From positions 2,894,001 through 2,958,000 of the forward strand of contig NZ_CP115465.1 of assembly GCF_027912535.1 (NCBI RefSeq): a stretch of DNA of 64,000 bases, given 5' to 3'. The notes under the pieces were generated by a model. That model worked only from the letters and a program-made list of their open reading frames with translations. It had not been told where the DNA came from and ran no database searches. Of this stretch, positions 9,590 through 26,995 are shown one piece after another; position 1 is the stretch's first letter, and each line of letters begins with the position of its first letter. This DNA is from Brevundimonas sp. NIBR11. Lineage in GTDB: Bacteria; Pseudomonadota; Alphaproteobacteria; Caulobacterales; Caulobacteraceae. The translations under genes and the position numbers were made by a program.

Positions 9590-10039
9590 TCAGGCCATCG
9601 ACCCCAGACGCGCGTTGGCCAAGTCGGCGATCACGGTGGTGACCTGGGCGCCGGAGCCCGTCTGGGTGAGAAGCTTCGTCAGGTGCGGCGACAGTTTGCG
9701 CGTGCTCACCGCCACCATCGCCCAGCCGATGAACAACTGGGCCTGGATCGGCCAACGTGCGAGGACGCGGACATTGCGGTGCCGGGCGTCCGCCTCGATG
9801 TCCCCCATCAGGGCCGTCAGCGCCTCGGGATCGCCTTCCAGCACCTGGACGAAAACGCCGTCATGGAGCGCCAGGGCGCCGGTGATCCGCCGCCGGCCGT
9901 TGTTCCTCACCGAGATCGCCATGACCTCCGACAGGTCCATCGGCCCCTCGGAGCCGTCCACCGCATCGCTGCGATAGACAAGGCGTTCGAGGACGCGCTC
10001 CCGCAGGGGCTGGCGCGTCGTCTCGGTCGGGGATGTCAT
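9590..10039 (-). CDS. BLUF-domain blue-light sensor
   Basis: The 149-residue protein is little more than one BLUF domain. The FAD-site residues of the family appear at the expected spacing: Tyr22 (LVYRSDA), Asn46 (VRNNGRRRITG), Gln65 (FVQVLEGD), and Trp106/Met108 (FIGWAMV). BLUF proteins change a flavin hydrogen-bond network on blue light and signal to a partner protein. No output domain is present, so a separate partner is implied. The start at 10039 leaves a short basic lead before the first strand. Its stop is one base from the convergent HerA-like gene. Confidence 0.88.
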   Translation of the reverse strand: MTSPTETTRQPLRERVLERLVYRSDAVDGSEGPMDLSEVMAISVRNNGRRRITGALALHDGVFVQVLEGDPEALTALMGDIEADARHRNVRVLARWPIQAQLFIGWAMVAVSTRKLSPHLTKLLTQTGSGAQVTTVIADLANARLGSMA

Positions 10040-10106
10040 GGGGAGGATAGCCTGGGCGGCGAATCCGCCTCCCATCTAGGCGCTTTTCGCCGGAAACCCT
10101 AATCGC

Positions 10107-14812: not shown

Positions 14813-15405
14813 GTTCTGATCACGCCGACCCGGCGCAACTCGTTCAGCACAGGCCACAGAGGCATGCCGAGGACGGTGAAATAGTCGCCCTCGACCCGGT
14901 CGAAGAGCTGAGATCCCATGCCTTCCAGCCGGTAGCAGCCGACCGAGCCCAACAGGCCTTCGCCCTCGACCTCCAAATAGGCGTCGAGGAAGTCGTCGGA
15001 GAAGCGTCGCATCGTCATCCGCGCCGTATCGACGCCCGACCAGACCACCGCGCCATTGATGGCGAGCGCGGCGCCCGAGTTCAGATGGTGGGTGTGGCCG
15101 CTCATCCCGCGCAGACGATGGCGGGCCTCGGTCAGGTCGCGGGCCTTGGAGATCATGCCGCCCTGGGAATCCAGGGTCTGGTCCGAGCCCAGCACCCAGG
15201 CCTCCGGATCGTGACGGGAGACCGCCAGCGCCTTGGCCCGCGCCAGCTCCAGCGCCAGTTCAGCCGGGTCGATGCCGGCGAGCGAGGTCTTGATGGCGTC
15301 CTCGTCCACCCCGGCGTCGAGCGCGGTGAAGGGGACGCCCGCCCCGGTCAGCATGGCGCGACGGGCGGCGCTGCGGGACGCGAGGATTAGCCTTTGGTCG
15401 GTCAC
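14809..15405 (-). CDS. Maf-family nucleotide pyrophosphatase, YceF-like subtype
   Basis: The 198-residue Maf protein opens [14 protein letters not shown] and carries VLGSDQTL. The GSDQ form is that of the YceF subgroup, which hydrolyses m7GTP, while the YhdE subgroup has a DTVV form; this assignment rests on that motif. Maf proteins release pyrophosphate from modified nucleotides. It overlaps both neighbours by 4 bp. The tail [16 protein letters not shown] is typical. Confidence 0.88.
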
Positions 15406-16262
15406 CAGGAGGCCCCCATCCTGTGGGTCCGCCGCTCGTTGAGCAGGTTCAGGATCGCCGCCGCCGTCTCCTCGACCGAGCGCCGGGTGACGTCGATGGT
15501 CGGCCAGCCGCGTCGCTCGAAGGCCCGCCGCGCCTTGATCGTCTCCTCGCGCACGGCGTCCGGCTCCACATAGTTGGAGGCGTGGGTGGCGTTCAATCCA
15601 TCCAGCCGGTTGCGGCGAATCTGGACCAGCCTGTCCGGTGAAACGGTCAGGCCGATGATCAGCGGGTTCTTCAGCCCGACCAGCCGTTCTCCATCCTCCT
15701 GACCGGGCACCAGCGGCACGTTGGCGGCGCGAACACCCCGGTGCGCCAGATAGATGCAGGTCGGGGTCTTGGACGTGCGCGACACCCCGACCAGGACGAC
15801 ATCGGCCCCCTCCAGCTGTTCGGCCGTCCCCTGACCGTCGTCGTGGGCCATGGCGTAGTCCAGGGCTCCGATGCGGTTGAAATAGTCGTGGTCCAGGGCG
15901 TGCTGGGCCCCCACCCGGGTCGACAGGGCCGCGCCCAGATAGCGTGACAGGGCCCCGACCAGAGGATCCAGCGCCCCGATGTGCGGCATGTCCAGCGTCC
16001 GGCAGCCCTCTTCCAGTTGGGCCCTCAGGTCACGATCGACGATGGTGTGCAAAACGACGCCCGGCGCGGCCGCCACCTCGGCCAGCACCCGCTCCATCTG
16101 CTTGTCCGACCGGACCAGGGCGTAGATGTGCTCGATCGGGATGACGCCGTCGAAACGGGCCGTCACCGCCTTGGCCATGGCGTTCAGGGTCTCGCCGGTC
16201 GAGTCCGAGACCAGATGGACATGGAAATAGGTCGCCAGCCGCGACGCCCCCGCCGGCCTCAC
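15402..16262 (-). CDS. ppsR: Pyruvate,phosphate dikinase regulatory protein (DUF299)
   Basis: The 286-residue protein is of the PSRP family, bifunctional ADP-dependent kinases and phosphorylases that switch PPDK or PEP synthetase off and on. Motifs are FHVHLVSDSTGETLNAMAKA, the P-loop-like VLVGVSRTSKTPTCIYLA, and YVEPDAVREE near the end. The start is a GTG at 16262, next to the origin; the family usually begins a few residues later, so an internal start is possible. It heads the leftward operon. In C. crescentus the orthologous gene flanks the origin on the side opposite hemE. Confidence 0.9.
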   Translation of the reverse strand: MRPAGASRLATYFHVHLVSDSTGETLNAMAKAVTARFDGVIPIEHIYALVRSDKQMERVLAEVAAAPGVVLHTIVDRDLRAQLEEGCRTLDMPHIGALDPLVGALSRYLGAALSTRVGAQHALDHDYFNRIGALDYAMAHDDGQGTAEQLEGADVVLVGVSRTSKTPTCIYLAHRGVRAANVPLVPGQEDGERLVGLKNPLIIGLTVSPDRLVQIRRNRLDGLNATHASNYVEPDAVREETIKARRAFERRGWPTIDVTRRSVEETAAAILNLLNERRTHRMGASW

Positions 16263-16318
16263 GCCGGGACCCCGCCGAGGGAAACCATGATCTGCGACGT
16301 GCGAATGGTGATGAATCC

Positions 16319-16327
16319 TGTGGATCG
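16319..16327 (-). promoter_or_regulatory. DnaA-box-like nonamer (G-box type)
   Basis: The minus strand reads CGATCCACA, matching 8 of 9 bases of the Caulobacter G-box TGATCCACA and 7 of 9 of the E. coli box TTATCCACA. It lies close to the ppsR end of the origin gap. Confidence 0.5.
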
Positions 16328-16433
16328 GGGTGGGCGCCGACCGGCTTGGGCCGGGCGCCGAAACCTATAGCGCGCGCCTCGCCGCCCGGCGAGCGGGGAC
16401 GATGGTGGAGGACGCCGACGATCCGGCCCCGGA

Positions 16434-16442
16434 TTATCCAGC
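16434..16442 (+). promoter_or_regulatory. DnaA-box-like nonamer
   Basis: TTATCCAGC matches TTATCCACA at the first seven positions. It lies in the middle of the origin gap. Confidence 0.45.
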
Positions 16443-16478
16443 CGACCCAGACCTTCACCGGAACCACTGGGGAAATGC

Positions 16479-16493
16479 TTAATGAAAGGTAAA
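16479..16493 (+). promoter_or_regulatory. CtrA-like site (TTAA-N7-TAAA)
   Basis: TTAATGAAAGGTAAA keeps the first half of the CtrA consensus and has one mismatch in the second half. It lies 50 bp from the exact site, as expected of the multiple CtrA sites known in Cori. Confidence 0.5.
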
Positions 16494-16542
16494 CGACCCC
16501 CAAGCCAACCTCAGGTCAAACGCCTGGCCGGGCGCCCGGCCG

Positions 16543-16557
16543 TTAAGGGTTTGTTAA
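16543..16557 (+). promoter_or_regulatory. CtrA binding site, exact TTAA-N7-TTAA
   Basis: TTAAGGGTTTGTTAA is a perfect match to the CtrA recognition sequence, in DNA where TTAA is otherwise rare. At Cori, phosphorylated CtrA binds such sites and blocks initiation in swarmer cells. Confidence 0.75.
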
Positions 16558-16569
16558 GGGTTTTGCCCG

Positions 16570-16578
16570 GTTTCCACA
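16570..16578 (+). promoter_or_regulatory. DnaA-box-like nonamer next to the CtrA site
   Basis: GTTTCCACA matches TTATCCACA at 7 of 9 positions. It begins 12 bp after the exact CtrA site, so the two proteins could compete. Confidence 0.45.
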
Positions 16579-16768
16579 GGCTGTCATCCGGCCGTCGCAC
16601 GATCCGGGGCGGCTTCGGGACAAGGGGTTTCGGCGTGGGGATCGGCGTCGATTCATCCCCGCCGTCCCGGCCCCTGCCTGCTTCCTCAAACCTTTCTAAG
16701 ATTCTGATCAGGATAAGAGGTAGGGCGTGGGGTTGAGGGGATGCGCCCATCCTCGTAGAGCCGGGGTC

Positions 16769-17806
16769 ATGAGCATCACGCCTTCGTTGATCCGGGTCCT
16801 TCAGGGCGAGACCCTGGACCGCCCGCCCATCTGGTTCATGCGTCAGGCGGGTCGATACCTGCCCGAGTATCGCGCCCTGCGGGCCCAGGCGCCGGACTTC
16901 ATCGCCTTTTGCCTGAACCCGGAGATGGCGGCCGAGGCGACGATGCAGCCGATGCGCCGGTTCGGCTTCGACGCGGCCATCGTCTTCGCCGACATCCTGC
17001 TGATCCCCCAGGCGCTGGGACAGGATGTGTGGTTCGAGACGGGGGAGGGGCCGAAGCTGGGCCTCATGCCGTCGCCGGGCGCGATGCTGGAAAAGGCCGA
17101 GGCCGCCGGGTCGCATCTGTACCACGTCGGCGAGACGCTCAGCCGGGTTCGCGCCGAGCTGGAGCCGGAGCGGGCGCTGATCGGGTTCGCCGGGGCGCCC
17201 TGGACCGTGGCGACCTATATGCTGGACGGCCACCACAACACGATCGGCAAGGGCGAGCGGGCGACGGCCCGGTCCTATGCCTATGCGGACCCCGAGAAGG
17301 TCGATGCGGTTCTGGACGCCTTGGTCGAGGCGACGGCTCGGTATCTGAAGATGCAGGCCGACGCCGGCGCCGACGCCCTGAAGATTTTCGAAAGCTGGGC
17401 GGAAGGGTTGCCCGACGACCTGTTCGAGCGGCTGGTCATGAAGCCGCACCAGAAGCTGGTCGCCCGCGTGCGTGAGCTGGGCGTCACCGTCCCCTTGATC
17501 GGTTTCCCGCGCGGCTCGGCCCTGCATGCCGAACGCTATGCCCGCGAGGTCGATGTCCAGGGCGTGGCGCTGGATACCGCCTGTTCGCTGGAGCGGGGCC
17601 GTGAGGTGCAGAAGATCAAGCCGATCCAGGGCGCGCTCGATCCCCTGCTGTTGCGCGCCGGCGGCAAGGCTCTGGATGCCCGCGTCGATCGGTTGATGGA
17701 GGCCTGGGGTGAGGGGCCGTGGATCTTCAACCTCGGTCACGGCATCCTGCCCGACGTGCCGATCGACCATGTCGAGAGGGTGCTGAAGCGGTTGGGAGCG
17801 CAGTAG
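16769..17806 (+). CDS. hemE: Uroporphyrinogen decarboxylase
   Basis: The 345-residue enzyme carries the signature PPIWFMRQAGRYLPEYR, with the substrate-binding arginines, and FADILLIPQALGQDVWF. It decarboxylates the four acetate arms of uroporphyrinogen III to give coproporphyrinogen III in the cytoplasm. The frame extends upstream to 16727, but the family N-terminus matches MSITPSLIRVLQGE at 16769. It is the first gene right of the origin; in C. crescentus transcription from the hemE side overlaps Cori. hemH follows after one base. Confidence 0.95.
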   Translation: MSITPSLIRVLQGETLDRPPIWFMRQAGRYLPEYRALRAQAPDFIAFCLNPEMAAEATMQPMRRFGFDAAIVFADILLIPQALGQDVWFETGEGPKLGLMPSPGAMLEKAEAAGSHLYHVGETLSRVRAELEPERALIGFAGAPWTVATYMLDGHHNTIGKGERATARSYAYADPEKVDAVLDALVEATARYLKMQADAGADALKIFESWAEGLPDDLFERLVMKPHQKLVARVRELGVTVPLIGFPRGSALHAERYAREVDVQGVALDTACSLERGREVQKIKPIQGALDPLLLRAGGKALDARVDRLMEAWGEGPWIFNLGHGILPDVPIDHVERVLKRLGAQ

Positions 17807-20998: not shown

Positions 20999-21014
20999 TG
21001 TTTCACGTGAAACA
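20999..21014. promoter_or_regulatory. parS: parS centromere site 1
   Basis: TGTTTCACGTGAAACA is a perfect palindrome and matches the near-universal bacterial parS consensus. ParB loads here as a CTP-dependent clamp and ParA moves the region to the pole. It lies about 4.5 kb from the origin gap, just before the DUF6489-like gene. Confidence 0.93.
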
Positions 21015-22713: not shown

Positions 22714-22729
22714 TGTTTCACGTGAAACA
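22714..22729. promoter_or_regulatory. parS: parS centromere site 2
   Basis: TGTTTCACGTGAAACA, identical to site 1, lies in the 83-bp mnmE-mnmG spacer, about 6.2 kb from the origin gap. Confidence 0.93.
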
Positions 22730-25273: not shown

Positions 25274-26089
25274 ATGACAAAGCCATACCTGAAGAAGACA
25301 CCGCGCGTGCTGGCGGTCTCCAATCAGAAGGGCGGTGTGGGGAAAACCACGACCGCGATCAACCTCGGCACGGCCCTGGCGGCCATCGGCGAGAAGGTCC
25401 TGATTGTGGATATGGACCCACAGGGCAATGCCAGCACCGGCCTGGGTGTTCCACGTGAAACACGCCGTATCACCATCTATGACGTGATCGTTGACGGCCG
25501 GTCCGTGCATGACGCTGCGGTCAGGACGGCCGTACCCGGATTGGAAATCATCCCGGCCGATGCCGACATGTCGGGGGTCGAGATCGAGCTGTCGCAAGCT
25601 GATCGGCGCTCCTATCGCCTGCGGGACGCCCTCTCGAATCAGACGGCGGACGGTCGGCCCGGGTATGACTATGTGCTGATCGACTGCCCGCCGTCGCTGA
25701 ACCTGTTGACGCTGAACGCCATGGCCGCGGCCGACGGCGTTCTGGTCCCGCTGCAGTGCGAGTTCTTCGCCCTAGAAGGGTTGACGCAGTTGATGAAGAC
25801 CATCGACATGGTGCGTCAATCATTGAATCCGACTCTCGAAATCCAGGGTCTGGTTCTGACCATGTACGACCGTCGCAACGCCCTGTCGGGACAGGTGGCC
25901 GCCGACGTCCGCGCCCACTTCGGGGACAAGGTCTATGAGGCCGTGATCCCCCGGAACGTCCGGGTGTCGGAGGCGCCGTCCTTCGGCAAGCCTGTGCTCA
26001 TCTATGACCTGAAATGTACGGGCAGCCAGGCCTACCTGCGCCTCGCCAAGGAGGTGGTGGGGCGTGAGCGCCGCCGTCTCGCCGCCTGA
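25274..26089 (+). CDS. parA: Chromosome-partitioning ATPase ParA
   Basis: The 271-residue deviant-Walker ATPase has VSNQKGGVGKTTTAINLG (both lysines present), DMDPQGNASTGLG and the switch VLIDCPPSLNLL. ParA dimers on the nucleoid pull ParB-parS complexes toward the pole. The ATG at 25274 starts one base after the rsmG stop and gives the normal family length. A GTG at 25250 in the same frame would overlap rsmG and add 8 unlike residues. The gene carries an exact parS site in its coding sequence. Confidence 0.94.
   Translation: MTKPYLKKTPRVLAVSNQKGGVGKTTTAINLGTALAAIGEKVLIVDMDPQGNASTGLGVPRETRRITIYDVIVDGRSVHDAAVRTAVPGLEIIPADADMSGVEIELSQADRRSYRLRDALSNQTADGRPGYDYVLIDCPPSLNLLTLNAMAAADGVLVPLQCEFFALEGLTQLMKTIDMVRQSLNPTLEIQGLVLTMYDRRNALSGQVAADVRAHFGDKVYEAVIPRNVRVSEAPSFGKPVLIYDLKCTGSQAYLRLAKEVVGRERRRLAA
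25447..25462. promoter_or_regulatory. parS: parS centromere site 3, inside parA
   Basis: TGTTCCACGTGAAACA differs from sites 1 and 2 by one base and is the B. subtilis parS consensus. It is translated as the peptide VPRET after the ParA GLG turn. It lies about 8.9 kb from the origin gap. Confidence 0.9.
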
Positions 26090-26110: not shown

Positions 26111-26995
26111 TTGTCTGAACGTCAAAGAGGTCTGGGACGCGGCCTGTCCGCCCTGATGGGTGAGCCGGTCGTCGAGGCCGTGTCGGTCGCTCCGGGCGCC
26201 CCGCTGCCGACGGGCGTCATGTCCGTGCCGATCGAGAGCCTGAAGCCCAATCCGGATCAGCCGCGCAAGCTGTTCACCAAAGAAGACCACGAGGAACTGA
26301 CCCAGTCGATCCGCGACAAGGGGGTTCTGCAGCCGATCCTGGTGCGGCAGCAGCCGGGCGAAGACGGGCTTTGGCAGATCATCGCCGGCGAACGCCGCTG
26401 GCGCGCGTCCCAAGCCGCCCGCCTGACCCAGGTGCCGATCATCGTCCGAGAGATGGACGACCTGGAAGTGCTGGAAGTCGCCATCATCGAGAACGTCCAA
26501 CGGGCCGATCTGAACCCGCTGGAAGAGGCCGCCGCTTACGGCGTCCTGATGGAGCGGTTCGGCCGGACGCAGGACGCGGTGGCCGGCATCGTCGGCAAAT
26601 CGCGCAGCCATGTGGCCAACACCCTACGCCTGACCCAGCTGACGCCCGGGGCTCGAAGCCATGTGCTGGAGGGCCGGCTTTCGGCCGGTCACGCGCGGGC
26701 CCTGCTGACGGCGAAGGACCCGGATGCGCTGGCCGAACTGATCGTGGATCAGGGGCTGAACGTCCGCCAGACCGAGGCTTTGGCCCGCAAGTCGCAGGGG
26801 GAGGACAAGCCTAAAGCCGCCAAGGCCGCGCCTGTCGCCCCGTCGCCGGACATCGCGGCGCTGGAGCAGGACCTGACGGATGCTCTTGGGCTGAAGGTTT
26901 CGCTGGCCGACAGGGGCGGGAAAGGCGAGCTGACGCTCTCCTACGCCGATCTGGAGCAGCTTGACGACCTCTGCCGTCGGTTGATGCGCGCCTGA
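26111..26995 (+). CDS. parB: Chromosome-partitioning protein ParB
   Basis: The 294-residue protein has an N-terminal ParA-contact peptide (SERQRGLGRGLSALMGEP), the CTP-binding ParB/Srx domain (IESLKPNPDQPRKLF; IIAGERRWRASQAA), a helix-turn-helix (GRTQDAVAGIVGKSRSHVANTLRL) and a C-terminal dimer domain after an Ala/Pro linker. It binds parS and slides on DNA. The start is TTG at 26111, with only a weak ribosome site; no ATG exists near the conserved N-terminus. It lies 21 bp after parA. Confidence 0.94.
   Translation: MSERQRGLGRGLSALMGEPVVEAVSVAPGAPLPTGVMSVPIESLKPNPDQPRKLFTKEDHEELTQSIRDKGVLQPILVRQQPGEDGLWQIIAGERRWRASQAARLTQVPIIVREMDDLEVLEVAIIENVQRADLNPLEEAAAYGVLMERFGRTQDAVAGIVGKSRSHVANTLRLTQLTPGARSHVLEGRLSAGHARALLTAKDPDALAELIVDQGLNVRQTEALARKSQGEDKPKAAKAAPVAPSPDIAALEQDLTDALGLKVSLADRGGKGELTLSYADLEQLDDLCRRLMRA

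Follow-up and report, generated by a model that had tools for sequence, protein, structure and literature searches.

The window that we analysed is a 64,000-nt stretch of the Brevundimonas sp. NIBR11 chromosome, bases 2,894,001–2,958,000 of a 3,166,259-bp genome assembled as one contig. It contains a 506-bp intergenic gap (genome coordinates 2,910,263–2,910,768) between a DUF299/PPPase gene and hemE, with borders taken from the list of open reading frames and the hemE start from the sequence (Table 1). By Pfam and the same list, both border genes read outward from the gap. An earlier note on this DNA had placed a gap between diverging DUF299 and hemE genes, at the position of Cori; its coordinates proved exact, and domain matches to PF03618 and PF01208 identified the DUF299 gene on the minus strand and hemE on the plus strand. 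The HemE protein is 92% identical to a Brevundimonas MAG protein and 91% identical to one from a MAG labelled B. subvibrioides. To the right of hemE follow, in order, ferrochelatase, rho, mnmE, mnmG, rsmG, parA (assigned by Pfam) and a plus-strand reading frame, 26111–26995, which is presumably parB. To the left, the window also holds a small minus-strand reading frame (9590–10075), whose product we presume to resemble a BLUF-type blue-light sensor.

Table 1. Features of the gap and its surroundings, in positions of the window.
Feature	Position	Strand	Remarks
DUF299 / kinase-pyrophosphorylase (PPSR) gene, left border	15402–16262	−	ORF; PF03618, E 2.6e-85
Putative chromosomal replication origin, intergenic	16263–16768	.	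506 bp
GANTC (CcrM-type methylation) site, at G-box-like element	16313–16317	.	
TCCTGTGGA block with G-box-like nonamer CGATCCACA	16316–16327 (nonamer 16319–16327)	−	one base off Caulobacter G-box TGATCCACA
DnaA-like nonamer TTATCCAGC	16434–16442	+	2 mismatches
W-box TCCCCA, immediately left of CtrA site 1	16468–16473	−	
CtrA site 1, TTAATGAAAGGTAAA	16479–16493	+	one mismatch to TTAAN7TTAA; position conserved
CtrA site 2, TTAAGGGTTTGTTAA	16543–16557	+	exact TTAAN7TTAA; position conserved
DnaA-like nonamer GTTTCCACA, shortly behind CtrA site 2	16570–16578	+	2 mismatches
W-box TCCCCA	16636–16641	−	
GANTC site	16650–16654	.	
Most A+T-rich part of gap, candidate unwinding region	16674–16728	.	56% A+T per 50 bp, top 0.18% of window
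GANTC site	16700–16704	.	
DnaA-like nonamer TTATCCTGA	16708–16716	−	2 mismatches
hemE, uroporphyrinogen decarboxylase, right border	16769–17806	+	ATG at 16769; PF01208, E 1.6e-99
parS	20999–21014	.	exact
parS	22714–22729	.	exact
parA	25277–26089	+	ORF listed from 25250; AAA_31 PF13614, E 1.8e-61
parS, inside parA	25447–25462	.	one mismatch
parB-like gene	26111–26995	+	ORF

Two CtrA sites start 64 bp apart in the gap, 290 and 226 bp before hemE; as had been claimed, one is exact and the other CtrA-like. Our CtrA counts took sites with at most one mismatch to TTAAN7TTAA, half-sites and two-mismatch sites being left out. At this threshold the window holds three matches against 0.47 expected, a number reached by 1 of 100 shuffles. 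When the gap was dinucleotide-shuffled (n = 5000), an exact site arose in 4 sequences and two sites with up to one mismatch in 6. The whole 3.17-Mb genome has 8 exact sites, one of them inside the gap, with a backward control giving 1.

The DnaA-box-like nonamers of the earlier note are also present, but number four rather than three. All of them, the G-box-like nonamer included, stand at 2 mismatches from TTATCCACA, and no box with fewer than 2 mismatches occurs in the 506 bp. We rejected a window-wide enrichment of such nonamers: the 65 found in 64 kb are near chance (mean 43.6, sd 6.6), so that only their local clustering is unusual. When 1.23 Mb of the genome, the gap itself included, was scanned with 60,000 overlapping frames of 506 bp, 0.17% of these contained four or more. 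The combination of two CtrA and four DnaA-like sites is found twice in this 1.23 Mb, at the gap and at L123:1401-2100 (genome 2,561,401–2,562,100). The latter cluster, in which the two CtrA sites are accompanied by four or five DnaA-like ones, lies upstream of a minus-strand gene, presumably podJ, and is plausibly a promoter co-regulated by CtrA and DnaA.

At the DUF299 end of the gap, TCCTGTGGA (16316–16324) is invariant across the 10-member nearest clade. No exact match to the Caulobacter G-box occurs in the gap; the best is a single nonamer in this conserved block, one mismatch away. The G-box and W-box (TCCCCA) sequences are as given in PMC4285127. The gap holds two W-boxes, against five in Cori, a 6-mer count that carries no computed chance expectation, and three GANTC sites. 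Its A+T content (35%) slightly exceeds that of the genome (about 32%). For IHF we used three consensus patterns, one of them that of PMC1914354. None of the three has a match in the gap, where a degenerate site could nonetheless be present.

Genome-wide, parS sequences at up to 2 mismatches are confined to the three in Table 1, 4–9 kb to the right of the gap, the side and distance that the earlier note had expected. The nearest parS lies 3–4 kb beyond hemE in 10/10 relatives tested. The single DnaA-domain gene, dnaA, starts at contig base 1 (1–1431), about 256 kb from the gap, and a motif scan of the 2 kb upstream of it found one DnaA-like nonamer and no CtrA site. The assembly is numbered from dnaA and hence does not start at the probable origin. 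Among the genomes listed with both genes on one contig, dnaA and hemE are 177–529 kb apart in nine Brevundimonas-group (g1) genomes, about 6 kb apart in four Caulobacter-like genomes (group g21, so called by motif pattern) and tens of kb apart in others. According to PMC4221894, dnaA is 50 kb nearer the origin in NA1000 than in K31.

Strand polarity gave a coarser view of the same region. In forty 20-kb tiles, 20 per side, GC skew averaged +0.0235 to the right of the gap and −0.0215 to the left. The skew test proposed in the earlier note, run here on sampled tiles, thus bears out arms of opposite sign, but not a switch at the gap itself: the best switch falls at 2.706–2.765 Mb, 145–205 kb to the left. 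Gene-corrected GC3 skew, computed from −360 to +260 kb, is best at −170 kb (bootstrap 95%, −285 to +52 kb). Compared with this optimum, the gap scores 4.6 log units lower, and +250 kb, which is close to dnaA and at the limit of the computed range, 51 log units lower. A set of seven polar 8-mers, derived from 29 training tiles that all lie over 330 kb away, switches best at −22 kb; here the gap is 2.7 units lower, −170 kb 5.6 lower and +250 kb 106 lower, and block bootstrapping gave a range of −280 to +50 kb and a median of −70 kb. By polarity, the gap falls within the region assigned to the origin and dnaA is excluded; the last 200 kb are beyond the resolution of the method.

A near relative, G198, shows a larger offset. 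With five polar words its best switch falls at −207 kb, its own gap being 15.6 units lower, and its tiles at −10, +10 and +38 kb score −5.1, +5.5 and +7.1, so that the sign flips beside the gap. Further out, −127 to −67 kb is positive and +68 to +158 kb negative. This pattern would be expected after an inversion around the origin, and inversions flanking the origin are reported for Caulobacter in PMC4221894. We infer that origin-flanking inversions may likewise explain the polarity offset seen here. Separately, a patch at 2.73–2.79 Mb, 120–180 kb left of the gap, has mostly right-arm polarity on the left arm by both GC3 skew and polar 8-mers, and is possibly a recent inversion. The terminus is bracketed by skew alone, for which the best splits include about 1.05–1.34 Mb; a search with the E. 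coli dif core gave no match at 2 mismatches.

To compare the gap with those of relatives, we searched genome contigs with HemE and kept 80 of 213 confirmed loci, giving 81 gaps with the window's own. A divergent DUF299 gene stands beside hemE in 80/80 relatives. CtrA sites at the one-mismatch threshold are present in 66 of the 81 gaps, against 2.81 expected from shuffles, and exact ones in 44, against 0.13. The recurring positions are about 290 and 226 bp before hemE, and the commonest start-to-start spacing is 64 bp. In the alignment of these gaps, CtrA site 1 is often preceded by a CTGTGGA or CTGGGGA box, while site 2 often has an ATCCCC box and a TTTCNACAGG box after it. Counting TCCCC or TCCACA on either strand, up to 20 bp to the left or 30 bp to the right, 105 of 120 CtrA sites have such an element; for positions drawn at random within these gaps the share is 51%, which makes the enrichment of DnaA-like elements beside CtrA sites a moderate one.

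The arrangement extends to other genera of the family. CtrA sites are present in 39 of 40 stretches from these, and in 33 a DnaA-like element lies next to such a site; by that count L199, L201, L202, L206, L207, L208 and L211 are without a CtrA-adjacent element. In four of the 40 we found no adjacent DUF299 gene, two of these (L190, L198) being cut by a contig end. Several Caulobacter-like g21 genomes have an extra CtrA site at about −484, right after a G-box-like CCTGTGGATCA, and a further one at about −106. The NIBR11 gap keeps a CCTGTGGATC block at its DUF299 end without the CtrA site at about −484.

Fifteen of the 81 gaps have no CtrA site at up to one mismatch. In a quick IQ-TREE phylogeny of the DUF299 and HemE proteins, 14 of these group together in a single clade (SH-aLRT 99), which holds B. 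diminuta, B. naejangsanensis, B. guildfordensis, B. bullata, B. terrae and B. pishanensis; the fifteenth is L113. Loss in three separate lineages was considered and rejected, as the tree gives two changes in all, the clade and L113. The number of changes is by itself directionless, and we read them as losses rather than gains because 39 of the 40 stretches from other genera hold a CtrA site. One member of the B. diminuta clade, L066, is a MAG titled Bordetella sp., a label that its place in the tree suggests is probably wrong.

The site-less gaps differ in other motifs as well. GANTC averages 5.5 per gap in the 15 site-less gaps against 2.3 in the 66 with sites, and TTATCC 2.0 against 0.8, differences that reflect two changes only and carry no statistical test. 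Eleven of the 14 clade gaps have 5–8 GANTC sites and two to four TTATCC motifs; the other three (L108, L114, L116) have only 2–3 GANTC sites. A second search, covering 30 g1 loci with the window's own included and possibly overlapping the first in species, gave 25 with CtrA sites and 5 without. In these five genomes, which are off the tree, CtrA is 95–97% identical to that of NIBR11, with few differences beyond about residue 125 if the C-terminal tail is set aside, and parS still lies beside hemE. An exact CtrA site outside the gap, TTAAGGTCGTATTAA, is common to the site-less G113 and G183 and the site-bearing G147, an indication that the CtrA motif has stayed the same in site-less genomes. 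Weak CtrA binding is possible in the clade, half-sites and two-mismatch sites being uncounted. For B. subvibrioides, on the site-bearing branch, PMC7987155 describes ccrM disruption without a growth defect.

An origin between hemE and COG1806 is established, with divergent borders given for Cori and for R. prowazekii in PMC1914354. Cori of C. crescentus has the same borders, hemE and COG1806/DUF299, as the NIBR11 gap, and is 404 bp long in CB15 (PMC1914354) against 506 bp here. Both have CtrA sites beside weak DnaA boxes and a G-box-like element beside DUF299, and both have parS close by, within 8 kb in the case of Cori (PMC4468827). Unlike Cori, with its five CtrA sites (PMC4468827) and two G-boxes, the NIBR11 gap has two central CtrA sites and a single G-box-like nonamer, one base off. 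The peripheral CtrA positions of several Caulobacter-like genomes (about −484 and −106) and any IHF consensus match are absent from it, and dnaA is about 256 kb away rather than about 6 kb as in the four Caulobacter-like genomes. The likeness to Cori is genuine, though partial. By description, Rickettsia and Wolbachia origins are also hemE-adjacent with predicted DnaA- and CtrA-type sites (PMC1914354), but their genomes are A+T-rich, unlike that of NIBR11, and in Wolbachia the second border gene is COG1253. Hyphomonas neptunium, a stalked budding alphaproteobacterium of a different genus, is comparable by the CtrA ChIP peak described next to its origin (PMC7200025).

Because the flanking genes, CtrA sites, DnaA-like cluster, parS, conservation and coarse polarity all fit, we read the gap, as the earlier note did, as very probably the chromosomal replication origin, of Cori type and in the same place as Caulobacter Cori. 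From these elements of the sequence we infer DnaA and CtrA binding, competition between the two, unwinding and origin activity. DnaA would assemble on weak boxes, namely the G-box-like site beside DUF299 and the W-box and TTATCC-like sites in mid-gap, and would then open the A+T-richer end next to hemE. The two CtrA sites, 64 bp apart, each abut a DnaA-like box, and phosphorylated CtrA would thereby exclude DnaA. In the swarmer cell, replication would be held off until CtrA is removed, and the parS sites and ParAB, 4–9 kb away, would segregate the new origin.

The gap could be the origin while CtrA acts there only on the hemE or DUF299 promoters. The site-less genomes speak for this: the 14-genome clade keeps the gap and the five site-less genomes keep parS, so that an origin located here can do without CtrA sites of up to one mismatch. 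Lowering CtrA affinity at all five sites in Caulobacter, moreover, perturbed the cycle only mildly, as reported in PMC4468827. However, at distances of 226 and 290 bp from hemE the CtrA sites are set against DnaA-like boxes, in positions conserved over most of the 81 gaps, and other genera set them against the same kind of box; we consider a purely promoter-based role unlikely but not negligible.

It is less probable still that the gap is only a divergent DUF299/hemE promoter region under CtrA and DnaA, with the origin elsewhere, such as 150–200 kb to the left. CtrA and DnaA motifs do mark promoters too, as in the gene upstream region at L123:1401-2100, and skew alone prefers −170 kb, with G198 preferring −207 kb. 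Against this, it is only at this gap, within the 1.23 Mb sampled, that the motifs combine with hemE/DUF299 borders and parS; parS stays beside hemE in all ten relatives, and dnaA is excluded as a switch point. We rejected an oriC linked to dnaA, since polarity rules out its neighbourhood and the 2 kb upstream lack these motifs.

With the gap as a Cori-type origin, this work gives Brevundimonas an origin that is well supported; dnaA is no guide in this genus, lying 177–529 kb from hemE in the genomes listed. Our literature search, with subscription papers mostly outside it, found no description of this origin or of the CtrA-site loss, and a prior description is possible; the word Brevundimonas is absent from PMC2877005. 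The Cori-type design with two central CtrA/DnaA modules is common to most of the genus sample. We speculate, with rather less than even confidence, that the ancestor of the B. diminuta, B. bullata and B. terrae branch lost direct control by CtrA over its origin in a single event, with CtrA near-unchanged and the centromere in place as in the five site-less genomes, and that DnaA and CcrM methylation, rather than a CtrA block, may time initiation in this branch. With CtrA sites present in the gap of some sister lineages and missing from that of others, the role of CtrA at the origin becomes testable by comparison. If the loss is real, Brevundimonas would be a natural experiment in which close lineages differ in origin licensing.
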